Assembly: GCA_022600195.1 (NCBI GenBank)
Contig: JAHZKX010000024.1
Location: forward strand, 1 to 39,816
Origin: Planctomycetota bacterium
Lineage (GTDB): Bacteria; Planctomycetota; Planctomycetia; Planctomycetales; Planctomycetaceae
Length of the DNA stretch: 39,816 nucleotides
Reading direction: 5' to 3'
Position 1 is the first letter of the stretch, and every line of letters starts with the position of its first letter. The position numbers and the translations under genes were made by a program. The notes under the pieces are model-generated. The model was not told the DNA's origin and made no database searches. It worked only from the letters and a program-made list of their open reading frames with translations. This document shows positions 9,653-39,816 of the stretch, piece by piece.

Positions 9653-9694
9653 TTGAGTTCTCCTCATTCACTGTTTTCTGAAAGGGGCCAAGCT

Positions 9695-24392: not shown

Positions 24393-25820
24393 TTATTTAA
24401 TTTTGCTCAGAATCTGTTCGGCGCGATACACGATCTCCAGGTCTTTATTTTTCGTGGCTTTCTGCAATTCGGCCTGAGCTGCTTTTCCATACTCTTCAAG
24501 TTTCTTTTGTGCCTCTTCACGTTGTTCCCAGTCTGAAGTTCCTAACTTTGCTATTAATTGATTAATCCGCTTCAATAAAGCAGGATCAGCATCAACTAGA
24601 ATTACAATCGCCGTTCGGCGTAAGACATCAGGAAATGGAGTGACTTCCACGGGGAGAATTTTGTCAAGATAACTTTCATCCATACAATACACGACAGTCG
24701 CCTGATCGTTCCGTAATGCATGTTGAGCGAGAATTTTCAAGACGTGTGTGGTCTCTGGTTTTCCCAATCCCAGTTCAGTTAATGTCTTTTCCCACACACC
24801 CATAATTTTTTCCTGTGTCAGTGGTGGTCTATCAGCAAATGGGATACTAATCGGGGGTACTTTCACCGCTGCGGGAGTTGGTTTTGCCGTACTTTTTGTT
24901 GTCGGTTTGGTTAATTTAGGCAGCGCTCCGATCGCTCGCAATTGTCCACCCAGAGCTGCCAATTCGCCTGCCTTTTTCACCTTCGCCTTATCCTTCAGAC
25001 TTTTATCTGACAACGGATCATTGGCTTTCGATTTCGTAGTTGTTTCTGTTTGCGGCGCTGGTTTCTTTTCCTTTTCCTTTTTCTTGAAACCTGGAACTTG
25101 ATTGATCGCCGCCAATTTCCATTCCTGCTTCTGTGAGGTTGGCTGCAGAATCGTAACATGCTGTAATGGATAAGCCTGCCGATTCTGAATTTGAAACCCC
25201 TCTTTCGAATGGGTTAGAGTAATTCCCGGTACATGATTTAATTCCACATCATACAAAATAAATCGTTCGCTCTTATTAATCCCCTTCAAAAACAACCGAT
25301 CTGCAGACTGCAAATGACTGAGCCAGTGGGAATTTTGCATCTTCATACTGAGCTGACTCTCTTTTAACATATTTTGAGCGCGCCAATAAATTCGTTTTGA
25401 TTGAATTCGTGCTGTTGGCCAATGAGATAAAAACCGTCCGGAAGGAAATTCAATCAGGATATCGATATCTTTTACTGCAGGACCTTCGAACGTCATTAAA
25501 CCAAGGGGGACTGGTTTGTGGCTATTCTCCGCGTCTGCACTCAATCGGCGTGATAACATATACCCGGGAGTTGTGGAGCGAAATAATTTGGCATCATTCA
25601 GTTTTTTCCCATGTGCCGAAACCAGAAACACACTCACATCACGTACGATCAATTGTGAAGCAGTCGGTTTTTTTTTTGCAGGATCACCTGCTACCAAATC
25701 TGACATTCCAAATGGGCTAAAAGCAGTCGAGATAACAATCAGCATCAGAAGCATGCTATAACGCTCTCGAATGCGGTCACAAATTTTAAATCGAAAATGA
25801 TATGCGTGTTGTCTATTCAT
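24393..25820 (-). CDS. Secreted protein with C-terminal HEAT-like segment; last gene of the operon
   Basis: The 475-residue protein has an N-terminal hydrophobic signal (about 22-44, cut near LVAGD), then a beta-rich part and a low-complexity Lys/Thr/Pro linker (about 250-320). The C-terminal segment reads DWEQREEAQKKLEEYGKAAQ...A.EIL, the planctomycete HEAT-like pattern in which a DWxxREEA helix precedes a helix with GxxAxxxL. I do not know a function. It is downstream of the NPCBM gene in the same direction, so it is likely an exported component of the same system. A gap of 36 bases separates the two. Confidence 0.65.
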   Translation of the reverse strand: MNRQHAYHFRFKICDRIRERYSMLLMLIVISTAFSPFGMSDLVAGDPAKKKPTASQLIVRDVSVFLVSAHGKKLNDAKLFRSTTPGYMLSRRLSADAENSHKPVPLGLMTFEGPAVKDIDILIEFPSGRFLSHWPTARIQSKRIYWRAQNMLKESQLSMKMQNSHWLSHLQSADRLFLKGINKSERFILYDVELNHVPGITLTHSKEGFQIQNRQAYPLQHVTILQPTSQKQEWKLAAINQVPGFKKKEKEKKPAPQTETTTKSKANDPLSDKSLKDKAKVKKAGELAALGGQLRAIGALPKLTKPTTKSTAKPTPAAVKVPPISIPFADRPPLTQEKIMGVWEKTLTELGLGKPETTHVLKILAQHALRNDQATVVYCMDESYLDKILPVEVTPFPDVLRRTAIVILVDADPALLKRINQLIAKLGTSDWEQREEAQKKLEEYGKAAQAELQKATKNKDLEIVYRAEQILSKIK

Positions 25821-25856
25821 AGTACTCTAACATTAATTTCTATAACCTGATTTCAT

Positions 25857-27683
25857 TCAATTTTTACTTGCCGCAAGTTCTTTCGGTATTGTACGGATCA
25901 ACTTGGGATCCCCCCAGACAAAACGATCGCCAACGTCCTGACCTTTTCCAAAGTCCACAATCAAAGTTAATGTCTGACAGTTGGTCACATCCAGACTAAG
26001 TGGTTCCTGTTTGAAACCAATTGTAAATCCCAATTTTTCATATATCGTTTTTCCGTCAGCCACAATTTTCACATCAACATTTCCCAGATGACCTGAACCC
26101 TCTTGAAGGCCGAGACTGGCCTGAAACCGTTCGAAGTTCTTCCCAAGAGAATAGACCAATACAGTTTTGGAATGCACACACAATCCTCTTCGAAAGATTT
26201 TGTTACCAACTTTCAAAGGCAAACCCGAGAACGATTTATCAACTTGATACGGATAAACCTGATTGAAAAAAGGGACTTGTGTGACAGAATCGGGAACAAT
26301 TCCAGTCAATGGAACCGACCGGGCATTGACTGTTCTGATAGAGGCCATTTCTATCTTGTGAATTGAGATCTGATCTCCCCAAGGCATCTTAATGGAAGCA
26401 ATAGAATTATCATCTACAGTCACTTCACCTGTGAACTGAGAATTACCGATTAGTTTCACCTGACTTTGCAACGCTAGATTTGATTTTTCCTTGAGACGTT
26501 TTTTTTGAAGAACCAGTCCAACCACACGGTCGAGATTGATTTCACGTTCCTGTCCTTCATATTGAAAGAGCAAGCTCTTGTCATTCATGCCGACCACTTC
26601 ACCTGTAACCCGATGGACATTGCCCTCTTTCGTTAATACATAGGCCGAATCTTCGGTATCAGATTCCTCCTTACGATCTGCACGCCAGTTTTTTTTAGGA
26701 TCAGACTGCACCTTCCACATCTCATGAATGGCTTCTTTTTTTAAGGGGACATCCAACTCTTTGTAAGATACCTGTACTTCAAAAAGAAAGCCACCTTTCG
26801 CAAAGCCCTTCAGCTTGCCTGTCAGTTTACCCTTTTGCGCAAAAGAAACATGCCAGCCAGACTTACTCTTTTCTACCGCCTGTTTGAATAATTCATTTGG
26901 ATAAGATCCGACATATAACTTTGCCTTACTATTTTTATCCGTCTCGATGGAAAACGTATACTCTCCATCCTTTGGTATCTTAATTAGCGTGTCATAAACA
27001 ATTCCAAAATTAATAGCGCTGCGTTTTGAAAGCAAAGCCAGACGCGGAGTCGTTCCTCTTTTTTTTACTGGAATATATTTAAGATCGTGGCTGGATTTGA
27101 CTTCTTCAGGAGGCTTCCATTCCATTAGTCGATATCCAACATTTCTCTTTGCGTCTTTCAAATTCACTGGTAAACGATACCCCTCTTTATCAACTTTGTA
27201 GTCCTTGGTAGCTACTTTGCGAACTTCGACAGAGTTATTATACAACAAATTGTTCGGGATCTCTGCACTTTTCATATTCGGCCCCGACATCATGATCTTC
27301 AGATTTGCGATTCCCACCGTATGAAAATAGGGTAGTACAAAACGGTGATAGCCTTTCCGAAGTTTTACCTTGCCTTTCCGCGGACCTTTTGCATAGCTGG
27401 GTTTCTCACCATCAATCAATAACTGACAGACATCCTGAGGTTTGTCAGGTTGGATAAATTTGTAAGAGGTAATATCAAACAGGTTTATTTTCTTCGTCGT
27501 GTCTGCGACCTTAATCATCATCATTTTCGAATCGATCGTACTAATTTGGCCGATAACTTTTTTGCCGTCATAGAGGACCACTTCATCTGCAAGAATCGCA
27601 GATGAGAATGACAGACTTAACCCGCAAATGATTGCAGGAAAGAGAAAATGTAGCATTATTAAAGTTTTCTTTATTTCCATCAT
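25857..27683 (-). CDS. Secreted NPCBM-domain protein with PA14-like region
   Basis: The 608-residue protein has a signal peptide (about 8-32, cut near ILADE). An SH3-like start (VVLYDGKKVIGQISTI) is repeated later (GEVVGMNDKSLLFQYEG; LIGNSQFTGEVTVDDNS). A PA14-like beta region follows (INFGIVYDTLIKIPKDGEYT to about 310). The C-terminal NPCBM domain (about 480-600) carries PLKVGNKIFRRGLCVHSKTV and VDVKIVADGKTIYE. NPCBM domains bind carbohydrate and occur with glycoside hydrolases, but there is no catalytic domain here. It likely binds glycan outside the cytoplasm. Its ATG lies one base after the stop of the gene upstream, so the genes are co-transcribed. Confidence 0.75.
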   Translation of the reverse strand: MMEIKKTLIMLHFLFPAIICGLSLSFSSAILADEVVLYDGKKVIGQISTIDSKMMMIKVADTTKKINLFDITSYKFIQPDKPQDVCQLLIDGEKPSYAKGPRKGKVKLRKGYHRFVLPYFHTVGIANLKIMMSGPNMKSAEIPNNLLYNNSVEVRKVATKDYKVDKEGYRLPVNLKDAKRNVGYRLMEWKPPEEVKSSHDLKYIPVKKRGTTPRLALLSKRSAINFGIVYDTLIKIPKDGEYTFSIETDKNSKAKLYVGSYPNELFKQAVEKSKSGWHVSFAQKGKLTGKLKGFAKGGFLFEVQVSYKELDVPLKKEAIHEMWKVQSDPKKNWRADRKEESDTEDSAYVLTKEGNVHRVTGEVVGMNDKSLLFQYEGQEREINLDRVVGLVLQKKRLKEKSNLALQSQVKLIGNSQFTGEVTVDDNSIASIKMPWGDQISIHKIEMASIRTVNARSVPLTGIVPDSVTQVPFFNQVYPYQVDKSFSGLPLKVGNKIFRRGLCVHSKTVLVYSLGKNFERFQASLGLQEGSGHLGNVDVKIVADGKTIYEKLGFTIGFKQEPLSLDVTNCQTLTLIVDFGKGQDVGDRFVWGDPKLIRTIPKELAASKN

Positions 27684-27684
27684 C

Positions 27685-28356
27685 TTACTTTTGTTTATCA
27701 GGAGTCGTCTTATTTTTGTCGACGGCTTGATTTCGGGCTAACCGGCGAAAATAATCTGCCAGAATATCTTCATACCCGGGAGGGAAACCTTCCGTGCGCG
27801 ACTGTAGAATTTTCTCACGTTGTTTTGGTGTCAGGTCGGCCCAGTTGCGCCCTTTTTTATCAGGTGCTTTCAATTTTCCCTGACCGCCGGGCCCCTTTGC
27901 CAACGTTGAAGAATTAGCAGGCCGTGTTGGATTTTGACCTGCAGCACCACTTCCGCTTTTACATGATTTTTCCAACATTGTGATTAAAGTATCCAGACGG
28001 GAAATAATTCGTGGCTGAGTCGTTTTGACCGGCTGCCTGGTCTGACCTTGATCAAAATCCTTGATCACAGACTTTACATCGGTCTGGATATTTTTGAATG
28101 GATCTTTTAACCAGGCGTCGTCCCGCATCATCGATAAATGATCTTTTTTTTTCGGCAAGAGAACTGGCACAGATTTCCCAGGCACAGCCTGAGGCTTTTT
28201 TGCTTCGACTGATTTCTCAACGGCTTGTTCTGATATGCTGGCGTCGTTGTCAGCACCAAGCATTACCTGCGCAGAGGGAACAAACCAGATTCCACAACAC
28301 GTCAGTACTGTCATATAGGTATATATTTTTCGAATTCTCATAGAAACAAGCTGCAT
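27685..28356 (-). CDS. Short secreted protein with conserved C-terminal motif, function unknown
   Basis: The 223-residue protein has a hydrophobic N-terminal segment (about 10-33, cut near VMLGAD), a Lys/Pro-rich middle and the C-terminal motif DLTPKQREKILQ...GFPPGYEDILADYFRRLA. A motif of that kind ends many small planctomycete proteins in vWA/MoxR clusters. I do not recognise a fold. An AGGAGGT ribosome site favours the ATG at 28356 over that at 28359. Either start overlaps the stop of the coiled-coil gene (ATGATG), so the two are translationally coupled. Confidence 0.7.
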   Translation of the reverse strand: MQLVSMRIRKIYTYMTVLTCCGIWFVPSAQVMLGADNDASISEQAVEKSVEAKKPQAVPGKSVPVLLPKKKDHLSMMRDDAWLKDPFKNIQTDVKSVIKDFDQGQTRQPVKTTQPRIISRLDTLITMLEKSCKSGSGAAGQNPTRPANSSTLAKGPGGQGKLKAPDKKGRNWADLTPKQREKILQSRTEGFPPGYEDILADYFRRLARNQAVDKNKTTPDKQK

Positions 28357-29834
28357 CATTCACCTCCTGCCAGACAATGCGGACAAGTCAGACTGTGTAA
28401 CCGTCCGGTTATTGTATCGATTTCCTTTTGTCGAACGGTCAGTAAATCGATTCGTTCCTTTACCGCCGTTTCTGAGATTTTTTTCTGATCAACCTGTTTG
28501 TCCAGATTATCCGTTCGCTTATGTACTGATTGCTGCATCCACCGTAGCATTTTCACTTCAGCTAATAATTTATTCCGATTTCCTTTACAGCCCTTACATT
28601 GACCGCCCCCCTGTTTATTCGAAGGACGCGAGGCTTCGATCATGGCATCGAGTAGCGCCTGCAGGTCTTCCTCGATTTGTTGTTGATCTTTAATCATCTC
28701 AACGTCGGCTTTACTATGAATTAAACCTTCGTTCACAAATTCCATCTGCTCGCGAACTGCTCCTAAAGCCACAGGGAGTACCAGGCTGAACTGAGTTAAT
28801 TCACAGAGTTCAATCGATTCTGAACAGAGATCGATAATTTTTTCTTCGGTTGCTGCCAACCGTCTGACCGCTACCAGAGCTTGTTTCTGCTTCTGCAAAA
28901 CGCGAGCTTGCAGTTTTGTCGTGACATCACGGACTTGTCTCTGCTGCGTTATCATGTCCTGAATCTGATCCATGACCCGTTGACGTACAAGCGATTCTAC
29001 TTCTTTACGAAGTTGTTCTTCAAGCTTTTTGATATCTAACTGGGCCTTGCTGAGATGCTCAATCGCTTTTTTCTGTTCTGTTGAAGCAGGCTTGGGTTGT
29101 GACTCGCCTAGTTTCTTACAGGCACCTCCCATGCATTTACCTGCCCCCGAGAGGGATTTGCAAATTCCATTGGAAGCAGCCCCATATTCGCGCAGAAGCT
29201 GTCCCAGAGTTTCTGCAGATTTCTGATTCCGTTTTTCACTGGTCTCCAATGCTTGCAGGTCTTTTTTGTTTTGCTTTTTATCCTTTTGATCCAGTGTATT
29301 CGAAAGTTGTAATTCTTCTTTTTTGAGGAGTTTACTTAAAGTTTCGCGCGAATTGATCAACTTTCGCAACTGTTCCAGTTTGAGTTCCAATCCGATGTCC
29401 GCTGTTAACAAGAGTTTCTTCAATTCTTCTAACAGAACCAGAATTTCTTTCTGTTCCTTACTGGCCTGATCCAATTTCAATTTGTCCAGCATCTTTGATG
29501 CTTCGCCCATGCGATCAAGAATCAGTTGCTCGCGGGCTTTACGTAAACCGAGCAGGAGTCGCGCCGCATCTTCCGGTTGCGACTCTCTAATGAGATTGGA
29601 AAGCCGAAACATGCGTTCTTCCAGCTCTTGCATGTGTGCTTTGGCTTTGACCTGCTCAAACTGAATTCGTTGCTGGGGCGCAATTTTTCCGGTTGTCGCT
29701 TTCCCGGTTGTCGTTTTCGAACTCGCTTTTGCGACGTCTGTTGATTTTTCTGCAGCATTGATCGAGGACAGCATAAAGGTGAATGCCACGACTACCGCGA
29801 GTCCGATCAATGTCTGTATTTGCCTTTTCTGCAT
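28356..29834 (-). CDS. Secreted coiled-coil protein, cysteine pairs near the C-terminus
   Basis: The 492-residue protein has a signal peptide (about 10-27), then long amphipathic helices with heptads (about 55-190 and 240-310), rich in Glu, Lys, Leu and Gln. Cysteine pairs occur in CKSLSGAGKCMGGACKKLG, QCKGCKG and the last residues CPHCLAGGE, suggesting disulfides or a metal site. I do not recognise a family. The ATG at 29834 is chosen because GGAGGTGAGGG precedes it by a few bases; a second ATG 15 bases upstream overlaps that site. It is co-transcribed between the DUF4175-like gene (39-54 bases before) and the short secreted protein (overlapping). Confidence 0.7.
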   Translation of the reverse strand: MQKRQIQTLIGLAVVVAFTFMLSSINAAEKSTDVAKASSKTTTGKATTGKIAPQQRIQFEQVKAKAHMQELEERMFRLSNLIRESQPEDAARLLLGLRKAREQLILDRMGEASKMLDKLKLDQASKEQKEILVLLEELKKLLLTADIGLELKLEQLRKLINSRETLSKLLKKEELQLSNTLDQKDKKQNKKDLQALETSEKRNQKSAETLGQLLREYGAASNGICKSLSGAGKCMGGACKKLGESQPKPASTEQKKAIEHLSKAQLDIKKLEEQLRKEVESLVRQRVMDQIQDMITQQRQVRDVTTKLQARVLQKQKQALVAVRRLAATEEKIIDLCSESIELCELTQFSLVLPVALGAVREQMEFVNEGLIHSKADVEMIKDQQQIEEDLQALLDAMIEASRPSNKQGGGQCKGCKGNRNKLLAEVKMLRWMQQSVHKRTDNLDKQVDQKKISETAVKERIDLLTVRQKEIDTITGRLHSLTCPHCLAGGE

Positions 29835-29888
29835 TTCCCTCACCTCCATAACAGGGGGCCATTGAAACCGATGAACTGGTTTCCTGAA

Positions 29889-32072
29889 TTATTTATCGAA
29901 AATGGAATCAACCTGCTTCTTCTTCAGTTCTTCTGTCTTTTCTTTGACAAGTTGCTCCAACTTAATCACTGCGTTTAATTGATTTACAACATCAATAAAA
30001 CTATCCCATTGAGCCATCTTTTTGAGAATTTCATCTAATGACTTTACAATTTGGTCCTGACGCGCTTCCATTGTCTCCGTCGAGTCAGGGGTTTCCGTTC
30101 TTAACGTTTCTAAAGACTGTCTTTGTCGCTCCATTTCCCGTTCATGCAGGTTCTGCAGCGGTTTTAGTACGGTTTGTGAAATCAACTGATAGGTTTCTTC
30201 ACCCCCCAATTGATTCAGTTTCATTTCTTCCACAGATCCATTTAAAGCATGGCTGACCTGTCCCACCTCACGGCGGACCAGCTGATGTTTCCGCATCCAG
30301 TCAGCAGCCTGATCCAGGCTGTTCGCCTGTTTTAAATCATCTCTTAGTTGTTCTGCCTGATCTCTGGCTTTTCGCAGACGAGAACGTAATTGCTGTTGTC
30401 TCAATAGGATTTCGCGAAAAAGTTCTTCTGGTTTGACGATCCGAAAGACTAACTGTCGCGATCTCGTTTTCTGTCTTCCTGTATAACAATCATCCTCTGC
30501 ATAGCTATGAAAGGTTATCACTGCTCCCGGATTCAGTTTCATCTCAGAAATCGAAACCTGCTGCTCATGATCAATCACCGTTTCCACGGCGGGTTCAGCC
30601 GGGCCATACACGGGATACTCTTTTTTCTTGTCTTTATTCTCTGGAGTCTTACTTTTGGTTTCCTTTACAGCTGATTCTGTCTTCGCTACTTCATCTGATT
30701 TTTCTTTTGTCTCTGTTCCTGACAAAGGCAGATGCGATGTCATACCAACCAGACGAATTCCATAATCATCACGGGCGATCATTGTGAAAGGAATGGTCGC
30801 TTTGGCAGTAATTCGTTGTCGTACTCCGGAATAGCGAAAACTCAGGCGTGGACTACGATCCGGTTGCATTCCAATTGAAACAGGTCTTGGATGTGAATTG
30901 ATTTCGTGTTCGGCAGAATGCAACGTCAACTTAAAACTGACTGGTTTTTCATGCGTCCATCGCGCTTCAAAATGCTTACCATCTGTACTCTCCCATTGTA
31001 ACGAAACGTCCTCAGAATCAACGTCAATCTGACTGACTTTGACATTTGTGGTTAATTGTATCGTCACCTCTGATTGAGGTAATAGTCTCACATTTCCCTC
31101 ACTGGCTGAAAAATGTGACACAAATGGTTGCGAGAGACGAGGATGCGTCGCCCGGATCGTCAAATCAGTAATCCGTGGCCGATCAATGGGAACGATCTCG
31201 AACGGCTCAGACTCTCCATCTCCTCCCCAGGCATACGCTTTGTAAGGCAACTGCAAAGGTGGAATTTCATACCGAAAATCACCCGCCTGGAAACGGTTCA
31301 TGGTAATCGTTTCACTTTCCCCGTCGTCACTTTCCAGATGTAACCAGACGCTTTCTGTTGTTCCTTCTTCATCTTCCGTATGAACCTGCAATGTCGCAGT
31401 TTCACCTCGCGGAATGATCCACTGTCCATTTTTCAGGCCGACCACCGATAAATGTGTATTGCGGGGCCATGCCTCATTTGAACCTAACAACCAGCGCTGG
31501 CTCCACAACCGAGCGGTTTCCGGAAAGATGAAAATAAAACAGAGAGGAATCAGAAATGCTGCCAGCACAGCCAGTAAGCAATGCCTGGTATGCCTTGGAT
31601 CGATCGAGTCCTGAAAGGGGTACTGGCTGAGTTGCTGATAATTGTACTGCACAGCCTGTTCGATCATTGGCTGTGATTGTTCTGCTTCTGAAAGATGCGC
31701 AGGCAATTGCAAGACACTGGCTACACGCGGTGCAATTGCCTGTTGCGGAGATACTTGCTTCGATTGATCAATCAGATTCGCGATCTCGATCGGTGAAAGT
31801 GCAATCCGTAACGGTAAAATCACATGTTGATAAATCAGGTAGCCAACAGTTCCCAGACCCAAAAGCAGACACAGGACGCGCGCCACGAAACTGAGTTCCA
31901 GCCACCAGTCAAACAGGAGCGATAAACAAGCCAGTCCTAAAATGGCAACAAAAATCCGCGCCACCGCTTCTAAGAGAGTATGACGGCGCAAAGAGCTCCC
32001 CACGTTTTCCAGTTTCCCGGAAATCATATTTTGCAATACTTTGAATTCACTCGGCCGCTCAACGCTCGACAT
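29889..32072 (-). CDS. DUF4175-like membrane protein with C-terminal coiled coil
   Basis: The 727-residue protein has membrane segments at about 38-56, 62-82 and 165-184. A large non-cytoplasmic beta-rich region follows (WIIPRGETATLQVHTED), then a Lys/Glu-rich linker (about 445-490) and a coiled coil (about 545-720). It follows the general DUF4175 plan (two membrane helices, then a third, then a long soluble part), which in other bacteria sits beside MoxR/vWA genes. Membrane-anchored scaffold is an inference. The gap to the preceding vWA gene is 26 bases. It has no catalytic motif I can name. Confidence 0.7.
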   Translation of the reverse strand: MSSVERPSEFKVLQNMISGKLENVGSSLRRHTLLEAVARIFVAILGLACLSLLFDWWLELSFVARVLCLLLGLGTVGYLIYQHVILPLRIALSPIEIANLIDQSKQVSPQQAIAPRVASVLQLPAHLSEAEQSQPMIEQAVQYNYQQLSQYPFQDSIDPRHTRHCLLAVLAAFLIPLCFIFIFPETARLWSQRWLLGSNEAWPRNTHLSVVGLKNGQWIIPRGETATLQVHTEDEEGTTESVWLHLESDDGESETITMNRFQAGDFRYEIPPLQLPYKAYAWGGDGESEPFEIVPIDRPRITDLTIRATHPRLSQPFVSHFSASEGNVRLLPQSEVTIQLTTNVKVSQIDVDSEDVSLQWESTDGKHFEARWTHEKPVSFKLTLHSAEHEINSHPRPVSIGMQPDRSPRLSFRYSGVRQRITAKATIPFTMIARDDYGIRLVGMTSHLPLSGTETKEKSDEVAKTESAVKETKSKTPENKDKKKEYPVYGPAEPAVETVIDHEQQVSISEMKLNPGAVITFHSYAEDDCYTGRQKTRSRQLVFRIVKPEELFREILLRQQQLRSRLRKARDQAEQLRDDLKQANSLDQAADWMRKHQLVRREVGQVSHALNGSVEEMKLNQLGGEETYQLISQTVLKPLQNLHEREMERQRQSLETLRTETPDSTETMEARQDQIVKSLDEILKKMAQWDSFIDVVNQLNAVIKLEQLVKEKTEELKKKQVDSIFDK

Positions 32073-32098
32073 AGACTTTTAAACTCCAGTGACCCATT

Positions 32099-33958
32099 TT
32101 ACAGAAGGCGACACCATTTCCTTAAAATCCACTCTGCTACCAGTAATCCAAAAATCAGGATATAAAATATTGGCGCATCCCAAATCTCCTGTCGTTCCTC
32201 AAGAAAGCGGGAGACCTGTTTGATTTTAAATGCGTTGGGAATCTCGTTTGCATCAGAAATCTGATAGGTGCGGCCTCCCGTGGAAACTGCCATCATTTGT
32301 AAGAATGCTTCATCTAATGCCGGATTTTCCAATTCCTTGTTCGGAAATTCGACTTTAATCGGCAGAGTGGCTGCTTTGACGGTTGCACCCGCGGATTCAT
32401 CGCCCAGCCAGACTCGAACAAAATAGGTACCCGGCTGCGAAACGGGAAAGGTCGTTGAAAATTCACCCGCTTTATTCCCGGGGGACAGTGTCAACGGAAT
32501 TGGCTGATCATCGCCACGTTCGACTTCACCGTAGAGTGTTTGCAGACCTGGTTCCATTTGTGAATCATCGAGAAAACGCGCCATGATTTTCGCTTGACTT
32601 CCAGGCTGATAAGTTGCCTGTACTGTTGAAAGACGAAAAGGATAATTTCCACCCAGTTGTTTACTGCGACCGGCCCGATCAACAACACGTGCCCAGAATC
32701 CGTCAAAAAACTGTTCATCCAAATATCGCCAACGGTAGGTACTGTCGAATCCGATAAAGATCGACCAACCTGGGCCCACTCGTTGCGAGGCAATCAGCAC
32801 TTCTTGTCCGTATTCGTTCCGCATGCGGGGATCAGCATGAACGGCGAGAACCGTTGCTCCCGGTTTTGCTTTCGTTACTGGAAAATGCCAGAACATCCCC
32901 GGCAGATTATTCAAAGTTTGTTCGTTCGTCTGACGATCATTGGAAAAAGTAAAAATGGAATCCTGAAATCCCTGTTCGGTTACATCCAGTTTCCAGGGCG
33001 ATCGCGCACTCAATCGAATTTGCACTTGTGACCGAAACAGGCCCGGTTCCCGAATTACGGGCAGGAGATTCAACCAGCTCAATGAGGGATCAGACTGGCG
33101 ATCAAACATCCTGGCGGTCTGCATTTCACCTGCAATATAAACCAGACCGCCACCCGCTTTGGTCACAAAGCTGGTCAATAGTTCCGGAAAATTAATCGGC
33201 CACAATGTCGGATCAGGATCATATAGAATGACACAGTCATAATCGTTGAGTTCTTCCTGTGTGACTGGCAAACGGCGAATGGGTAAATCACCTGGATGTT
33301 CGTACGTTTTATCCGCGGCCATCAGCCAGGACGACAAATTGATCTGTCGATCTCGCAGAAAGGTATTTCGCAAGAACTGAACTTCCGGGAAAGTAGAACC
33401 CGCGATGAATAGCACGTTTAAACGCTGACGGATGACACGCACTTCAGCCGAAGCCAGATTATCATCTTCAGAGATCTCCGGGCCAGTATCGATTATTTTT
33501 GCCCGGAATTCCAGTTTCCCATTTTTGGTTTCACTGAAATCAAACGTTCGCGGCTGTAATTGACCTTCCAGATTGAGCACGATTTCTTCACGCACAAATT
33601 CCTGCCAGGGACCACCATTTCTGCGTTTTTCAATCAGCAATGTCGCTGTTTCTGCCTGCATGCCGCGCGATTCGATATGCACGGTCATTTGATTCGTATC
33701 CTGCACAAAGACGACAGGACTGACTTCCAATTCGCTGATCGCCACATTTCGAGGGCCATCTGTTGTCCCCACGCCCACCGTCACGAGAGGAACGCCTTCA
33801 TCCGAGAGCATTTGCAGCACTTCTTCAGGTGGCTCACCCGCCGTCGATTGACCATCGCTCACCAGTAATACACACCCGACAAGGGCATTCCCGTGTAAGA
33901 CAATAGAGCCTGTCTGAGAGAACTGGCGATGGCGGTTGCATTTCCGCCAGTATCCCAT
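32099..33958 (-). CDS. C-terminal part of a frameshifted vWA membrane protein
   Basis: From about 33873 this frame reads VLLVSDGQSTAGEPPEEV, the second half of a vWA domain whose first half is in the 33859-34521 gene. A beta-rich segment, a class-I-amidotransferase-like/ThuA-like region (RLNVLFIAGSTFPEVQFL, DYDCVILYDPDPTLW, AGGGLVYIAGE) and a C-terminal membrane helix (FYILIFGLLVAEWIL) follow. The first 28 residues (33958-33873) are an out-of-frame reading of the N-terminal gene, so the annotated start is not natural. With one base added near 33870 the joined protein would be about 807 residues, close to the normal vWA family size. No catalytic Cys triad is seen, so the amidotransferase fold is probably structural. 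Confidence 0.75.
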   Translation of the reverse strand: MGYWRKCNRHRQFSQTGSIVLHGNALVGCVLLVSDGQSTAGEPPEEVLQMLSDEGVPLVTVGVGTTDGPRNVAISELEVSPVVFVQDTNQMTVHIESRGMQAETATLLIEKRRNGGPWQEFVREEIVLNLEGQLQPRTFDFSETKNGKLEFRAKIIDTGPEISEDDNLASAEVRVIRQRLNVLFIAGSTFPEVQFLRNTFLRDRQINLSSWLMAADKTYEHPGDLPIRRLPVTQEELNDYDCVILYDPDPTLWPINFPELLTSFVTKAGGGLVYIAGEMQTARMFDRQSDPSLSWLNLLPVIREPGLFRSQVQIRLSARSPWKLDVTEQGFQDSIFTFSNDRQTNEQTLNNLPGMFWHFPVTKAKPGATVLAVHADPRMRNEYGQEVLIASQRVGPGWSIFIGFDSTYRWRYLDEQFFDGFWARVVDRAGRSKQLGGNYPFRLSTVQATYQPGSQAKIMARFLDDSQMEPGLQTLYGEVERGDDQPIPLTLSPGNKAGEFSTTFPVSQPGTYFVRVWLGDESAGATVKAATLPIKVEFPNKELENPALDEAFLQMMAVSTGGRTYQISDANEIPNAFKIKQVSRFLEERQEIWDAPIFYILIFGLLVAEWILRKWCRLL

Positions 33959-34521
33959 TCATCCGACAGCTTTAATGAAGTCGGATCGAACTTGTCGGAA
34001 AAACCATGTAAGTGAACAGTTCGCGTTCCCTTGGCAGAGAGATCTTTTAAAAACTGTTCGTTAATCAGTTTTTGCGTCAATTGCATCCGATTCAATTTTC
34101 GCATGGCATCAGTATTGGCAGACATCCCCAGTTTTCGTGAGACTTCCATCGCTTTCTCCTCATCTTTCCAGGCATCTTTTAATGACATGGAAAGAGAAGT
34201 GTCTATCAGAACCAGCAAGTGCGAAGGGATTTTTTCCTCTTTACTAAGCACGAGAATCGGTTCCAGCAACATCGCGATGACCAGGGAGAGAATCGAAATG
34301 CGAATCGTATACAATAAACAACGTCTTCCTAAAGGAACCTGCCGTGCATCGCGTTTGTAAAGCCACCACCCACCAGCGATAAGGATAACCGTTCCCAGTA
34401 AGAATAAGAGCATCCAGTCGCCTGTCGGCAGACCGACCCACTGGGCGGACCATTGTCCCCCTTCGGTCCAGGACGAAGATTGAATGCCAAATATAAATTC
34501 CAGAAACTTATTCAATTTCAA
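33859..34521 (-). CDS. N-terminal part of a frameshifted vWA membrane protein
   Basis: The 220-residue fragment has two membrane segments (about 36-53 and 70-92) and the start of a vWA domain. The MIDAS motif DTSLS is at 107-111 (DxSxS, metal-binding), followed by TGGNATAIASSLRQALL, the MIDAS Thr region. It ends PLSGVYYW, where family members continue with a hydrophobic strand and SDG. That strand and the SDG appear in the -32099 frame, which overlaps this one. It is a truncated product unless the shift is corrected, suppressed or a sequencing error. It follows the BatA-like gene by ten bases. Confidence 0.75.
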   Translation of the reverse strand: MKLNKFLEFIFGIQSSSWTEGGQWSAQWVGLPTGDWMLLFLLGTVILIAGGWWLYKRDARQVPLGRRCLLYTIRISILSLVIAMLLEPILVLSKEEKIPSHLLVLIDTSLSMSLKDAWKDEEKAMEVSRKLGMSANTDAMRKLNRMQLTQKLINEQFLKDLSAKGTRTVHLHGFSDKFDPTSLKLSDEWDTGGNATAIASSLRQALLSYTGMPLSGVYYW

Positions 34522-34531
34522 ATCTCGCTAT

Positions 34532-36685
34532 TTACCGCCGCCGACCAATCCAGGTCGCCAGCATACTTTCTGAAATCAGACAACCCAGCAAGAGGACTGC
34601 CAGATATCTCCATAGTTCCGTCCCTTCTGTCGAAAGGTCCATTTCTTTTCCCTGGTATCGAATCAATTTTAAAGGCATGCGACCTAAAAATTGTTGCAGC
34701 GCCTGCTCATTCATTTTTTTCTGAAGTGAATCATCGACATTGGCATTGATTGCAAACTTCTGCGATTGATCGCCGAGTTGCGAATCCTGCCAATTCGCTT
34801 CGACCACACCTGCAAATCGAACCGGCGCAGAACTTAACATGGTTTTTGATTCGTCAATGGAGCCAAATGTGATATCAAGCGGATTTAATTCTCGATCTAA
34901 CCAAATCAGTTCACCTGATTGAGGCGCGGTAATTGTCTCCAGCTCGTAGTGAATCGGTTCCCCGGCGATCAGGTTATCTCCACGTTGAATATCTGCAGCT
35001 ATTTGCTGTGCTGCCACACGCATCGCAAGTACAAAGCTGGCTTCCGCAGGCCAGTCACTCCAGCTTTTATCTGCAGTGATGGTCCAGAAGAGAACGCGTC
35101 CTTCACCAAAGCGTTTTTCGAGGACCGCTGGCGACTGGCTCGCATCATTCCAGCGTGCCAGCACGCGTACTTTCTGCTGATCGATATTGGGTTCCGTACT
35201 GGAATCAATGATCACATCCGCAAAGCGGCGCGGACGAACGCGACTTAGAAGCTCTGGTGTCAACCCTTTCAGGAGTTCGATCGGTGAATCGGCAATCGGT
35301 TCGATCACCAGTCCCTGCGACTGTAAATCGCTGATCTGTCGTAAACGCGCCGGAAGCAGACCATTGCCTCCTTTGAAGAGACGTTCATTGTAAAGTTCCA
35401 GATCACACTGGTCGCCGGCAAAAATCATTAGCCCAGTTCCCAGAGCTACGAGTTCTTCCAGCTCTGTAATCCGTTTTTTTGACAACTGATCAACATTTGC
35501 CAGAATAATTAAATCGGGGGCTGTTAACAGCTGATTTTTCCAGGTCGAACTTTCCTCCTGTGTGACCTGCCAGCTTGAATTTCCGGCCGAAAGCGCCAGC
35601 GCCAGAAAATCTGTTTCACTGTCAAATGGATTCAAGCCAGGTTCTCCATCGACCAGAACCACATCAACCATCTGTCGTACATTAATCACTTTTCGCTGAA
35701 TATTATCATCCTGCAATTTATCTGTCGGAATACTCAGGGACACAACATGCTGTCCCGGCTGGTCAAATCGCACACTGACGGGTACATTCACTGTTTTATC
35801 TGCAGGAATTTCCGGTAGAGAAACAGGTGTTACATCTCCATCAACGGTAAGCAGTGCCTGACCCGACTTGAGTGGTTCATCTCCTGCATTTTCGATTACA
35901 GCCGTCATTTTGACTTCTTGATCGACCAGCGCAATTCGACTATCTAATTCCAGCGAACGTAAGACTCGATTACCTGCAGGTTCAGCACCGATATCAATAA
36001 AACGCACAGTGACTTGTTCCTGTGACCAGCGATCAAACAAATCTTGCACTTCAACAGTCCAGCCAGCCGCCCAGAGATCAGTGACGATAATCACTTCTTT
36101 CACCGGAAACGTTGCTTCCTGTAGCTGTCGATCAATATCCTCTAATGTCGAAATCCAGTGGCTGGCCATCTGACAGCTTGCCAATTCGTTAATCCGCGCG
36201 ACCAATTTATTTCGCTCGTTTTCCTCCAGATGTGCCATGCGTACCAATGTTTGTGAGGGATTCGACGCCAATACTACCGAAACGGAATCTTGTGGGCCTA
36301 ACTGATTCAGAATTTGTCTCGCGGCATTTTTTGCCCGCTCAAATGCTGATTGATCTCCCTTCTGATACGACATGCTCAACGAATCATCAATCACGATCAC
36401 GCGGCTGGCTCGGCCTTCCACCGAAAGGAATCCAGCCAGATTTGTACTCGAACTGATCGGGCGGGCGATCGCAAAAAACAAAGCCAAAACTGCTAAAGTC
36501 CTGAGCGCCAGCAACAACCATTGCTCCAGTCGTAAACGTCGACGATTGGTTTTCAACGTCAACTTCAGATATTCCATCGGCGCCCAGTTCACGCGTGTAA
36601 ACCGTCGCCGGTTTAGCAGGTGAATGATGATGGGGGCGGTTGCCAGAACCGTTCCCGCCAATAAAAGGGGTGCCAGAAAATGCAT
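34532..36685 (-). CDS. BatA-type N-terminal membrane domain plus vWA protein
   Basis: The 717-residue protein begins MHFLAPLLLAGTVLATAPII, with the BatA N-terminal domain: a first membrane helix (1-24), HLLNRRR, then a second helix (56-78, LLLALRTLAVLALFFAIARP). A vWA domain follows with MIDAS DxSxS at Asp100-Ser102-Ser104 (VIVIDDSLSM). A beta region (about 250-340) and a ThuA/amidotransferase-like region (VDVVLVDGEPG, LIILANVDQLSKK, GTGLMIFAGD) come next, and a final membrane helix near 690-712. This matches planctomycete BatA-like proteins, which act with MoxR and DUF58 proteins. Integrin-like metal-dependent binding is inferred. It lies 27 bases after the DUF58 gene. Confidence 0.82.
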   Translation of the reverse strand: MHFLAPLLLAGTVLATAPIIIHLLNRRRFTRVNWAPMEYLKLTLKTNRRRLRLEQWLLLALRTLAVLALFFAIARPISSSTNLAGFLSVEGRASRVIVIDDSLSMSYQKGDQSAFERAKNAARQILNQLGPQDSVSVVLASNPSQTLVRMAHLEENERNKLVARINELASCQMASHWISTLEDIDRQLQEATFPVKEVIIVTDLWAAGWTVEVQDLFDRWSQEQVTVRFIDIGAEPAGNRVLRSLELDSRIALVDQEVKMTAVIENAGDEPLKSGQALLTVDGDVTPVSLPEIPADKTVNVPVSVRFDQPGQHVVSLSIPTDKLQDDNIQRKVINVRQMVDVVLVDGEPGLNPFDSETDFLALALSAGNSSWQVTQEESSTWKNQLLTAPDLIILANVDQLSKKRITELEELVALGTGLMIFAGDQCDLELYNERLFKGGNGLLPARLRQISDLQSQGLVIEPIADSPIELLKGLTPELLSRVRPRRFADVIIDSSTEPNIDQQKVRVLARWNDASQSPAVLEKRFGEGRVLFWTITADKSWSDWPAEASFVLAMRVAAQQIAADIQRGDNLIAGEPIHYELETITAPQSGELIWLDRELNPLDITFGSIDESKTMLSSAPVRFAGVVEANWQDSQLGDQSQKFAINANVDDSLQKKMNEQALQQFLGRMPLKLIRYQGKEMDLSTEGTELWRYLAVLLLGCLISESMLATWIGRRR

Positions 36686-36712
36686 GTATTGTCTCGGAAT
36701 TCTCTTTCAGAT

Positions 36713-37708
36713 TTACTGGAGTGATTTCGTTTCAGGGGCAGGGGAGTTCTCTCTGTTTTTCTCGCTTTGGTTTTCTTTACGAGACGGACTGCCCAGCGAA
36801 GACATTCGTCCGCGATGCGTCTTTGCACCTCCGAATTGGCGATTATGTAAATAACTGCTTAAGACGGCTCCCAGATTTTCATCCGTCAAGATCTGTAGAT
36901 AATCAATGCCGCAATATTGACAACGCTGTCGAGTTTCCTGAGTAAATTCTTCCATGGCAGCCTGATAGGCTTTATGAAATGCCCAGGGTTCCGCGAAGAT
37001 TTCCTCTTCTCCTTCAATATCTTTAAAAATCACAGAGTCTTTAAAAGGCATTTCCATTTCATCGCGATGTAGAATATGTGCAACGATGACTTCATGTCCG
37101 GCATGTTGCAGCTTGCCTAGCGATTCATAAAACGGGTCTAAAGGTGTCAGCAGATCCGAAAGCACCACAACCACACCCCTGCGATGGATCTGATCGGCAA
37201 CTTGTGAAACTGCCGGGCCGATATCGGTTTCTCCGATCAGTTCGACACGCTGTAATACTTCGATAAATTTCGCCAGATGTGAAGGAGTTCCACCTGTTTT
37301 CAGGTCTTCCTGAACGCGATCATTCAAAATCGCCAGGCCTACCGCGTCCCGCTGTTTCAATAAAACAGCCGACAGCGAAACGGCAATCGTGGCAGCACAA
37401 TCATATTTTGAAAACTCCGGCGCACCATATTGCATCGAAGCTGAAGAGTCGATAATGAACACCGCGCGTAGATTCGACTCTTCTTCAAATCGTTTGATAT
37501 AAAATCGATCGGAACGGGCGTACGCTTTCCAATCGAGGTTCTTTAAATCATCTCCGGGTGTATAACTTCGATAGTCGGCAAATTCAGGAGAGAGTCCGTG
37601 CAGAGGGCTCCGGTGCTGACCGGCAATCGTACCTTCCACCGGTTGTCGTGTTTTAAAACCAATCCCGGCGATTCTTCCAATCACTTCAGGATTTAAGTAT
37701 TCTTTCAA
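36713..37708 (-). CDS. DUF58 protein with vWA-type core
   Basis: The protein (331 residues from the TTG at 37708) shows the DUF58 signature YTPGDDLKNLDWKAYARSDR followed by RFEEESNLRAVFIIDSSASM. DSSAS is a MIDAS-like motif of the vWA fold. DUF58 proteins are partners of MoxR ATPases. The TTG start has AGGAAAGGA eight bases upstream and begins LKEYLNPEVI, where relatives usually begin. A GTG at 37732 is an alternative eight codons earlier but has no ribosome site. The start overlaps the end of the moxR gene, so translation is coupled. It likely forms the soluble part of the vWA/MoxR assembly. Confidence 0.85.
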   Translation of the reverse strand: MKEYLNPEVIGRIAGIGFKTRQPVEGTIAGQHRSPLHGLSPEFADYRSYTPGDDLKNLDWKAYARSDRFYIKRFEEESNLRAVFIIDSSASMQYGAPEFSKYDCAATIAVSLSAVLLKQRDAVGLAILNDRVQEDLKTGGTPSHLAKFIEVLQRVELIGETDIGPAVSQVADQIHRRGVVVVLSDLLTPLDPFYESLGKLQHAGHEVIVAHILHRDEMEMPFKDSVIFKDIEGEEEIFAEPWAFHKAYQAAMEEFTQETRQRCQYCGIDYLQILTDENLGAVLSSYLHNRQFGGAKTHRGRMSSLGSPSRKENQSEKNRENSPAPETKSLQ

Positions 37709-38738
37709 ACTGTCCGTCCTTTCCTGCCTCACTCTGATGCAAGGGAGTTTCCTCTATCAGCTTTTCGACTACAGTATCTGCTGTCTGTCCTTCTGATTCC
37801 GCGTTGTAAGACAAAACAATCCGGTGACGCAAAACTGCTTTCGCTACTGTCTGTAAATCTTCGACGATCACTTCAGGACGTCCATACAAGGCAGCTCTGG
37901 CTTTTGCGGCCAGAATCAACGACTGACCGCCTCGAGGGCCAGCGCCCCAGAGAACCCATCGATTGATAAAATCTGGTGCATCTTCGCTATCGCGGCGTGT
38001 GGCTCGAATCAGATCCATTGTGTAGTCCACCAGAAAATCACTGATCGGAACACGTCGGACCAGATGCTGTAATTCCAGGACTTCTGCTCCCGTTAACGTC
38101 GCCTCAGGTTCTACCTGATCATCACCGGTCACTGTTTTATAGATCAATCGTTCTTCATTCCTTGTCGGGTATTCGACTATGATTTTCATCAGAAAACGGT
38201 CCAATTGTGCTTCGGGCAGGGGATAAGTGCCTTCCTGTTCAATCGGATTCTGTGTTGCCAGCACAAAAAACGGGCTGGGCAATTCATAGTGTTTTGTACC
38301 GGCAGAGATATTTCGTTCCTGCATACCTTGCAACAATGCAGCTTGCGTCTTGGGTGGCGTACGGTTGATTTCATCGGCAAGTAACAAGTTGGTAAAAATC
38401 GGGCCTTCGATAAACTTGAATTCGCGGCTGCCCGTCTGTCGATCTTCATAAATCACATCGGTCCCGGTAATATCAGCGGGCATCAGGTCTGGTGTAAATT
38501 GAATACGACCAAATTCAAGTGAAAGACTTTTCGCCAATGTCGAAACGAGCAATGTTTTTGCCAGCCCCGGTACTCCCTCAAGGATACAATGTCCTCCGGC
38601 CAGAATACTGACCAGGAGTTGCTCTACCACATCATCCTGGCCAATGACAACCGTTCGAATTTGTTTGCGAATTCGTTCCTGGGCTGCTCTGAGTTTTTCC
38701 AAAGCTTCCATATCTGGTGCTGTTTTGATCTCTGACAA
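37686..38738 (-). CDS. MoxR-family AAA+ ATPase
   Basis: The 350-residue AAA+ chaperone-like ATPase has Walker A GVPGLAKT (55-62) and Walker B LLLADEINR (118-126). It also has the MoxR phrases QFTPDLMPADITG, NRTPPKTQAALLQGMQE, LATQNPIEQEGTYPLPEAQLDRF, and a C-terminal lid (WGAGPRGGQSLI). MoxR proteins are thought to activate or assemble vWA-containing partners; DUF58, BatA-like and vWA genes follow directly. It starts with TTG, preceded by GGGGAG with six bases spacing; the next ATG is nine codons in. It is cytoplasmic. It forms one transcript with its downstream genes. Confidence 0.9.
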   Translation of the reverse strand: MSEIKTAPDMEALEKLRAAQERIRKQIRTVVIGQDDVVEQLLVSILAGGHCILEGVPGLAKTLLVSTLAKSLSLEFGRIQFTPDLMPADITGTDVIYEDRQTGSREFKFIEGPIFTNLLLADEINRTPPKTQAALLQGMQERNISAGTKHYELPSPFFVLATQNPIEQEGTYPLPEAQLDRFLMKIIVEYPTRNEERLIYKTVTGDDQVEPEATLTGAEVLELQHLVRRVPISDFLVDYTMDLIRATRRDSEDAPDFINRWVLWGAGPRGGQSLILAAKARAALYGRPEVIVEDLQTVAKAVLRHRIVLSYNAESEGQTADTVVEKLIEETPLHQSEAGKDGQFERILKS

Positions 38739-38790
38739 GGTTCGCTCCCCGTTCTACCAGCCTGCAAGGGTGGTTACTACTGTTTGAAAA

Positions 38791-39627
38791 TCAACGTTGA
38801 TAAATGGGTAAATACTTGTAAGGCAGTTGCATCACAATCAAGGCCACACTGGTTCCGAACACCGGGCCAACGCCATCGCCATTCCAACTGCCATCCTTTT
38901 TTGATTGTGTCTTGATCAAGCTGTCCCGTTGACCGAGAAAATAGGCATTCCAGTACTCATCGCCTGCCTGATAAAACGCCTGAGAGGCGTAAAGATTCAA
39001 ATAAAAATAGTGCCCGGACCGAAAACCATTTTTTCGACTCTTGAATTGACCATACACATATTCCATACATTCCTCAGCCAATGGCGATTCATATTCCCCT
39101 GCTGAATACAGACAGGTAATGGCAGCGGCTGAAATGGGCAAACGCGTATCGTTTCCGGAATTATAAGAGTAACGGATACCCCCATCCGGAGTCTGACAGA
39201 GCTCCAGATAGCGGACAGCATTTTCAATGGTTCCTTTGGGTACCGTGAACCCGGCGTTATGTGCTGCACGGAGTCCCTGCATCTGCGTTACAGTAACACT
39301 TCCTTCATCTCCACCACCGGGAGTATAGATCCAGCCACCCAGATTACTTTGCCCCGACGCAGTCAATTGAATTCCATTTTTCAGGACTTTTCCTATTCGG
39401 GCACGCACTTTAGCATCAGTTTCCATACCAAAGACACTGGAGAGAAATAAAAGTGAGAAACCATGGCCATACATGGGGCGGCCATTTTCTGAACCAGCGG
39501 CAATCAGACCATTCTCCTGTGCCTGACTCAAAACGTACTCCGTGGCTTTGCGTACCTGATCTGCATACGGACCACGACTTGATGTATTACCATTAGCTAA
39601 AAACGCAATCCCTGCCAGGGATGTCAT
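38791..39627 (-). CDS. Toroid-fold protein (squalene-cyclase/prenyltransferase repeat), N-terminus lost
   Basis: The 278-residue frame contains alpha-alpha toroid repeats typical of squalene/oxidosqualene-cyclase- and prenyltransferase-like proteins. Repeat phrases are LGGWIYTPGGG, LELCQTPDGGIRYS, ISAAAITCLYSAGEY, FYLNLYASQAFYQAGD and KKDGSWNGDG. Catalytic motifs of terpene cyclases are not visible, and planctomycete relatives are usually secreted and non-enzymatic or unknown. The first Met has no ribosome site. The same frame stays open and plausible for 26 more codons to a TAG at 39706-39708 (ending TTQDGSTYPVS before the Met), so the true start was upstream and the gene is truncated where hairpin-rich DNA begins. 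It is first in the MoxR/vWA operon. Confidence 0.65.
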   Translation of the reverse strand: MTSLAGIAFLANGNTSSRGPYADQVRKATEYVLSQAQENGLIAAGSENGRPMYGHGFSLLFLSSVFGMETDAKVRARIGKVLKNGIQLTASGQSNLGGWIYTPGGGDEGSVTVTQMQGLRAAHNAGFTVPKGTIENAVRYLELCQTPDGGIRYSYNSGNDTRLPISAAAITCLYSAGEYESPLAEECMEYVYGQFKSRKNGFRSGHYFYLNLYASQAFYQAGDEYWNAYFLGQRDSLIKTQSKKDGSWNGDGVGPVFGTSVALIVMQLPYKYLPIYQR

Positions 39628-39734
39628 TGAAACCGGGTACGTACTTCCATCCTGGGTGGTTTGAAAGCTGCCTGAAGCTGACCTTCCCCCGATGTTAGTA
39701 CCAGCCTAAGTGAGAGAATCGGGGTTCATGGGGT

Positions 39735-39783
39735 CGGTGTTCTTCTGGAGTGAGGCCGTAGGCCGAACGGAAGAAGAACACCG
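39735..39783. repeat. Long hairpin, 12-bp perfect stem
   Basis: CGGTGTTCTTCT (39735-39746) pairs with AGAAGAACACCG (39772-39783). The 25-base loop contains GGCCGTAGGCC, which can fold again. It is the most stable inverted repeat in the window. Confidence 0.6.
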
Positions 39784-39784
39784 C

Positions 39785-39798
39785 GCGGCAAATGCCGC
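39785..39798. repeat. Hairpin GCGGCA-aa-TGCCGC
   Basis: A perfect 6-bp stem with a 2-base loop lies one base after the larger hairpin. The two together resemble the subterminal structures of hairpin-dependent mobile elements. Confidence 0.5.
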
Positions 39799-39816
39799 AG
39801 GGGTTTGGTAATTCAA

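Follow-up and report, generated by a model that had tools for sequence, protein, structure and literature searches.

A cluster of eleven open reading frames (ORFs) on the minus strand of contig JAHZKX010000024.1 of a Planctomycetota bacterium is read here, with a confidence slightly better than even, as the Planctomycetota form of the MoxR-DUF58-DUF4159/BatA-vWA envelope-maintenance operon, extended outward towards envelope glycans. The window is the whole of that contig, 39,816 nucleotides long. To the operon core and a DUF4175 protein the cluster would add a toroid protein of squalene-cyclase fold, a CBM51 protein and, in this case, a further gene named J. The genes are referred to by letters: A, toroid; B, MoxR; C, DUF58; D, BatA-type protein; E, second vWA protein; F and G, DUF4175-like parts; H, short motif protein; I, NPCBM protein; J, last gene. 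They overlap or are separated by gaps of 1-52 bases, and are laid out as follows.

39676..39816, no strand: multicopy repeat reaching the contig end; it truncates the toroid gene.
38791..39678, minus: A, alpha/alpha toroid protein with the 5' end missing; matches 347-amino-acid relatives from about residue 52-55.
37686..38738, minus: B, MoxR AAA+ ATPase (Pfam AAA_3, 1.4e-61; Walker A).
36713..37732, minus: C, DUF58 protein (Pfam DUF58, 4.7e-42; vWA DxSxS; no hydrophobic segment).
34532..36685, minus: D, BatA-type membrane protein (BatA 4.9e-18, VWA_2 4.1e-10, two_anch 3.4e-22).
33859..34521, minus: E, N-terminal piece, two hydrophobic segments and the beginning of the second vWA domain; frame broken.
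32099..33958, minus: E, C-terminal piece, the remaining vWA domain, a GATase1-like/MG2-like region (by family) and a C-terminal hydrophobic segment.
29889..32072, minus: F, membrane-anchored N-terminal part of a DUF4175-type protein.
28356..29849, minus: G, coiled-coil part of a DUF4175-type protein (joined to F in other lineages).
27685..28359, minus: H, short protein with a C-terminal W-x-x-L ... Y-F-x-x-L-A motif, defined by alignment.
25857..27683, minus: I, beta-rich N-terminal stretches and a C-terminal CBM51/NPCBM domain (residues 474-595; NPCBM 1.2e-27).
24393..25820, minus: J, putative exported protein without a Pfam family; hydrophobic segment at residues 21-40.

A first-pass annotation, made from the sequence alone, had described ten genes in this order, all on the minus strand with overlaps or short gaps. 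Strand, spacing and order were borne out, but the second vWA gene is split in two frames, which gives eleven ORFs, and position 39705, proposed as the end of the cluster, falls inside the multicopy repeat, the toroid gene being incomplete. The MoxR, DUF58, BatA-like and NPCBM identities held, as B, C, D and I have clear Pfam matches; E matched weakly, below the cut-off, and F, G, H and J gave nothing above the cut-offs. MoxR retains Walker A; DxSxS is kept in C and D and in the N-terminal piece of E. Hydrophobic leaders or anchors were observed on D, E, F, G, I and J; in D they lie at residues 1-25, 53-78 and 694-714, with the vWA domain and its DxSxS in between. No minus-strand terminator-like site lies within the intergenic gaps from toroid to J (both strands together hold 26 such sites versus 15.0 in shuffled sequences). 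The promoter scan showed no excess (16 sites versus 20.8 in shuffles), and the Rfam scan of the window returned no match.

The B-E half is, judged from its sequence, a known operon type, and the earlier statement that MoxR with vWA partners is known stands. Profile searches showed that the MoxR-DUF58-DUF4159-E order of Sinorhizobium meliloti is collinear with B-E (MoxR, 2e-126; DUF58, 5e-30; DUF4159 protein with the D profile, 2e-27), the E profile matching two ORFs there (2e-11 and 5e-25). As in the rhizobial type, the MoxR gene of the cluster is followed by a DUF58 gene, the third gene encodes a BatA/DUF4159-type membrane protein (D, which has no direct DUF4159 match in the Pfam scan) and the fourth a vWA/GATase1-like membrane protein (E, though broken in the window; GATase1_like was matched in 5 of 23 E family members). 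The rhizobial MoxR-DUF58-DUF4159-vWA operon (RL3499-RL3502, cmdABCD type) shares with the cluster the four-gene core, its order and detectable homology; the difference is that the S. meliloti stretch read carries no homologue of F, G, H, A, I or J downstream. Its envelope and morphology phenotype is taken from citing papers, in which RL3499 of Rhizobium leguminosarum is reported as important for membrane integrity and cell morphology (PMC3893208) and the operon is named cmdA-cmdD, with envelope and morphology changes (PMC5700661). The Bat operon of Bacteroides and spirochaetes is alike in having MoxR, DUF58 and a BatA-domain vWA protein, but the DUF4175, toroid and CBM51 parts are extra in the planctomycete cluster; no BatD partner was matched by Pfam among the window ORFs or the E family members scanned. 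On a plasmid of Gemmatimonadota (Gemmatirosa kalamazoonensis plasmid 1, L234/L236), E and two unassigned ORFs are followed on the same strand by B-C-D-FGH, the last an FGH fusion of 1268 amino acids, and no toroid or CBM51 gene was called; in Deinococcus aetherius, a weak F match precedes B-C-D. From these gene orders, which represent few outgroups, the planctomycetal additions seem to be younger than the core with DUF4175.

MoxR and vWA proteins also occur in anti-invader conflict systems of the type described by Kaur and co-workers. MoxR with vWA, NPCBM domains and planctomycetes all appear in that work (PMC7159879, PMC8195603), and the window MoxR scores above the bpMoxR cut-off (43.8 versus 27 bits), with far higher scores for AAA_3. 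However, no third-component or effector domain is among the Pfam matches of the window ORFs and the toroid relative, D, E, F, G, I and J bear hydrophobic leaders or anchors, and the core is common to the rhizobial operon. A conflict function is accordingly very improbable. PADLOC matched none of the ten ORFs scanned, and a conflict or anti-phage system was rejected.

F, G and H are best taken for fragments of a single DUF4175-type protein, because they are fused elsewhere and because DUF4175 is matched within the family. F-G fusions were found in L038, L043, L044, L062 and many toroid-anchored loci, F-G-H fusions of 1405-1417 amino acids in L085-L087, and in the genome of the window itself a 1355-amino-acid ORF (L119) matches both F and H. 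DUF4175 was matched in 11 of 25 G family members (best 1.5e-8) and in 4 of the 33 sequences of the F set (best 1e-13), of which seven are F-G fusions; TIGR02302 was matched in one of the 33 (1.7e-4). The likeness to DUF4175/TIGR02302 proteins lies in these matches from part of the G family and F set, and the difference in the splitting of window F and G, which fall under the curated cut-off. AdvA of Acinetobacter, which has a DUF4175 domain, is reported to be a critical division protein (PMC7481262). Among the CenR targets tabulated for the envelope regulator CenKR of Rhodobacter sphaeroides are a MoxR gene and a gene for a TIGR02302 protein (PMC9275681). The at least four secreted proteins of no assigned role in the first-pass annotation are reduced by this to one DUF4175-type protein, with the toroid, the CBM51 protein and J remaining. 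The cysteine pairs that the annotation had noted are present in window G, but no cysteine is among the conserved columns of the 25-member G alignment, and a cysteine-pair redox function was rejected on that account. H, which it had called secreted, shows no hydrophobic leader above a simple threshold, so that its secretion is supported through the F-G-H fusions alone. None of the 111 listed H matches contains a Pfam domain. In L051 and L054, of the same family, H proteins of 354-366 amino acids occur with no F, G, A or I called nearby.

Conservation of these genes as a unit extends well beyond close relatives, in variable sets. Conservation of order beyond close relatives, on which the first-pass annotation had staked its proposal, was found: all 9 full same-genus loci show the C to J order and at least part of MoxR (20 loci fetched; one further same-genus contig is too short), and order is also kept in L037 and on plasmid pPL62-3, and large parts of it in distant genomes. 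L037, a locus outside the genus, retains part of B along with C to J. On plasmid pPL62-3 of Planctomyces sp. SH-PL62 (L233, NZ_CP011276.1) stand D to I, an unassigned gene and J, and ahead of D, at the record start, an ORF that matches both MoxR and DUF58; such operons are therefore not restricted to chromosomes. The plasmid is 81 kb long and typed as non-mobilizable. The G (coiled-coil) query found matches in 26 of 30 relatives' genomes, many of them weak, and the H profile in 67 of 98 genomes of the phylum. DUF58 occurs in all 98, with 9 copies in this genome among the matches listed; as a rough yardstick, a random 20-kb stretch would hold DUF58 about 3% of the time (nine loci in 6.58 Mb).

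Neighborhoods were compared in 80 H loci picked by hand from the H match list, leaving out same-genus G002/G003 matches, the window's own match, matches weaker than 1.2e-6 and matches inside the neighboring G gene; four of the 80 (L093, L099, L115, L122) have no H by profiles and 31 are under 19 kb. Among the 49 loci of at least 19 kb, H was called in 47, F or G in 45, D or E in 28, a toroid or CBM51 protein in 35 (toroid in 23, CBM51 protein in 18), B or C in 13 and J in 7; B and C are undercounted, because the loci extend only about 13.5 kb upstream. When the toroid served as the anchor instead, the best 80 of 549 all had planctomycetal titles, with F, G or H in 54 loci, I in 63 and any of these four in 69; for the 37 of them that are at least 19 kb long, the counts are 23 for F/G/H, 19 for B-E and 31 for I. 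The usual order there is D-E-FG-H-A-I, which is present in Blastopirellula marina DSM 3645, Singulisphaera sp. GP187 and Paludisphaera soli, and the order BatA-vWA-DUF4175-H-(toroid)-(CBM51) recurs in Planctomycetota. Outside the genus, L056, L060 and L080 share with the window a toroid that precedes MoxR.

The toroid, modeled on a full-length same-genus relative (the window copy being truncated), is an alpha/alpha toroid of squalene-cyclase fold. The family shares this fold with class II terpene cyclases such as squalene-hopene cyclase but differs from them by a hydrophobic N-terminus (94 of 130 members) and by the rarity of the DxDD motif, which occurs in 4 of 130 and is absent from the window copy as read. 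An active squalene cyclase was rejected on the latter ground, and an alpha-2-macroglobulin-like thioester toroid on the basis of poor TED matches of the toroid relative (0.0024-0.036). A toroid paralogue of similar score is present in each of four other same-genus genomes searched. One might suppose that MoxR and the vWA proteins act as a maturation chaperone, which loads or activates a secreted toroid enzyme and its CBM51 partner as NorQ/NorD do, the envelope not being the target. NorQ/NorD are described as essential for iron insertion into NO reductase (PMC9976466); the toroid fold is enzyme-like, 19 columns are invariant in a 30-row alignment, an acidic residue precedes Ser in 116 of 130 members (as a pattern, not as an alignment column), and the toroid and I also pair alone. 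The scarcity of the class II terpene cyclase motif speaks against this, and the toroid, not found in 26 of the 49 long H-anchored loci, cannot be a universal client. We regard chaperoning as unlikely, though worth keeping in view.

The C-terminal domain of I belongs to CBM51/NPCBM by both profile and fold: in the structure model, Foldseek gave a match to 2vmg (TMt 0.83, rmsd 2.2). Model confidence is limited (mean pLDDT 69.5, pTM 0.46), the N-terminal part being of low confidence outside some beta stretches, and the remaining Foldseek rows, toxins among them, reach query TM-scores of only about 0.1-0.2 and were treated as noise. I is probably sugar-binding; it differs from CBM51/NPCBM proteins in that the window protein has beta-rich stretches instead of a glycosidase or peptidase domain. 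The CBM51 domain would fit the earlier proposal of an assembly that displays or monitors glycans, and it also invites a reading as an adhesion or surface-display system, in which vWA and CBM51 domains would attach to external polysaccharide and MoxR would remodel the adhesin. DxSxS is present in the vWA domains, and the Borrelia vWA protein BB0172 is reported to bind an integrin (PMC5700661). But D, and E across both of its pieces, are hydrophobic at both ends, which favors an inner-membrane location, and the homologous rhizobial operon type is linked to envelope integrity; adhesion appears decidedly improbable. J, which had been labeled HEAT-like, has no Pfam match at E<=0.1, the HEAT-like look of its tail being by eye alone; it has relatives in L037 and L233.

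Returning to the envelope-maintenance operon, a course of action may be outlined. MoxR with DUF58 would consume ATP to remodel a D/E complex, as the MoxR family suggests, and the coupling to D and E would follow from the shared operon and from the vWA partners of other MoxR proteins. Hydrophobic segments and flanking positive residues would place the vWA/GATase-like parts of D and E in the periplasm. F-G-H, with its membrane segments, coiled coil and fusions, may be a membrane-anchored coiled-coil tether spanning the periplasm, and A and I, by their folds, may sit at its far end to hold or process an envelope glycan or glycolipid. By analogy with rhizobia, the wall and outer membrane would be kept attached and intact under stress; envelope integrity under stress is the likely purpose. 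A more specific and rather improbable version is an ATP-driven trans-envelope machine, in this form specific to Planctomycetota, in which cytoplasmic MoxR/DUF58 would act through the periplasmic vWA/GATase-like membrane proteins and the DUF4175 tether on a secreted toroid/CBM51 lectin pair that grips a glycan with an isoprenoid or hopanoid tail (the glycan by I, the lipid in the toroid cavity). If that were true, each paralogous operon, with its own kind of secreted tail, would serve to grip a different envelope glycan.

Several observations weigh against the envelope-maintenance reading. The S. meliloti operon is only presumed, from its gene content, to be the counterpart of RL3499-RL3502. 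No experiment on the cluster in any planctomycete was found in the literature. Window G reaches only 12.1 bits against DUF4175 (PF13779; cut-off 27.3, E 0.049), and window F has no match to that family in the Pfam scan. When 16 same-genus genomes were searched with G, two of low completeness (G005 and G015) fell short, one without any match and the other with just a weak one. The secreted half, which the first-pass annotation had joined to the MoxR/vWA half, is accompanied by D or E in the 28 long H-anchored loci given above, but neither was called in the other 21 of 49, so the two halves are not obligatorily linked; some of these misses may be diverged or more distant genes, and in G048 a DUF58 gene lies about 20 kb upstream of H. 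By profiles, 31 of the 49 lack a CBM51 protein and, as noted, 26 lack a toroid. A toroid and CBM51 pair without the core was found in L150 and several toroid-anchored loci, and these two proteins may therefore serve something else. The R. sphaeroides MoxR and TIGR02302 genes are unlinked, at distant chromosomal places, according to passages of the target table (PMC9275681).

The novelty that the first-pass annotation had claimed for the gene set was upheld within the open full-text literature on Planctomycetota (subscription papers and preprints lying outside it): among the matches listed, none describes the set by title or start of abstract. MoxR, von Willebrand and DUF58 are unmentioned in the main text of the Planctopirus limnophila essential-gene and Tuwongella proteome papers, and the Rhodopirellula and FtsZ-like family papers held nothing on the cluster genes. 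Planctomycetota have an unusual envelope and a budding division with poorly named proteins. The family is widespread in the phylum, as the H counts show, with several versions in this genome; the envelope-maintenance reading would make a single machine of the poorly understood MoxR, DUF58, BatA-type and DUF4175 proteins, and the tie to the rhizobial envelope operon gives a testable role to a set of 'hypothetical' proteins.

H is matched at three more loci of this genome outside the window. L050 (contig C73, near 82 kb) has B to I called, L119 (C73, near 39 kb) has D, E, the F/H ORF and a toroid, and L073 (contig C39, near 66 kb) has E, F-G and H; MoxR and DUF58 were not called in L119 and L073. 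The genome also carries a toroid-CBM51 pair on C12 and a lone toroid on C28. In L150 of this genome (11744-15449), a toroid-CBM51 pair without the MoxR core adjoins a glucose/sorbosone dehydrogenase-like gene. On a tree of 73 E proteins, the type of secreted tail requires 17 changes versus a mean of 38.9 in shuffled labels, and none of 200 shuffles was as low; this indicates clustering rather than single origins, because near-copies and loose labels contribute. The tree takes ORFs of 680-960 amino acids, E ORFs outside this range, L037's among them, being excluded; seven loci are left out (same-genus L029, L033, L036 and L048; duplicates L049, L050 and L062), and L043 and L152, identical in sequence, are both in. 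The label J includes loose J matches (L059, L061, L069, L075, L097), L061 being a probable artefact.

The copy in the window looks damaged. E is a single ORF of 804-841 amino acids in the 9 full-length same-genus loci and two frames in the window, and the length of the break region differs from that of the window in all seven relatives compared. The toroid of relatives is a protein of 347 amino acids with a hydrophobic leader; in the window, its gene meets the multicopy repeat at about 39676, and the contig ends at 39816. Other contigs carry this repeat at 15 near-identical places, most of them at contig ends, and a divergent copy (two of the 18 match rows) lies within contig C68; perhaps the assembly breaks here at the end of an insertion sequence or a repeat. 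In the same-genus relative L143, a SIMPL (DUF541) gene lies immediately upstream of the toroid; this gene was matched in all 8 relatives searched, including the closest (the G014 copy has an internal stop), and found no match in this genome. In L143 (2476-5548), a PQQ_2/TPR protein gene and the SIMPL/DUF541 gene precede the toroid on the same strand, and ORFs of similar size and strand stand ahead of the toroid in three other relatives of the genus. A window copy with two broken genes may be inactive. That the operon here is a decaying copy without current function, which would be compatible with the other readings, is a real possibility, held at somewhat less than an even chance: beside the broken E frame, the toroid truncated by the repeat and the SIMPL gene that is present in relatives and unmatched here, a second full B-I operon exists in the same genome. 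On the other hand, the assembly is a draft of 84 contigs in which both lesions could be assembly errors, and the other genes are open and similar to those of relatives.

Elsewhere in the window, a 483-amino-acid ORF (2254-3705) has no Pfam match at E<=0.001. A ClpB-like AAA protein of 624 amino acids (7793-9667) and a ResIII/DEAD helicase of 945 amino acids (4892-7729) are encoded by mutually convergent genes.

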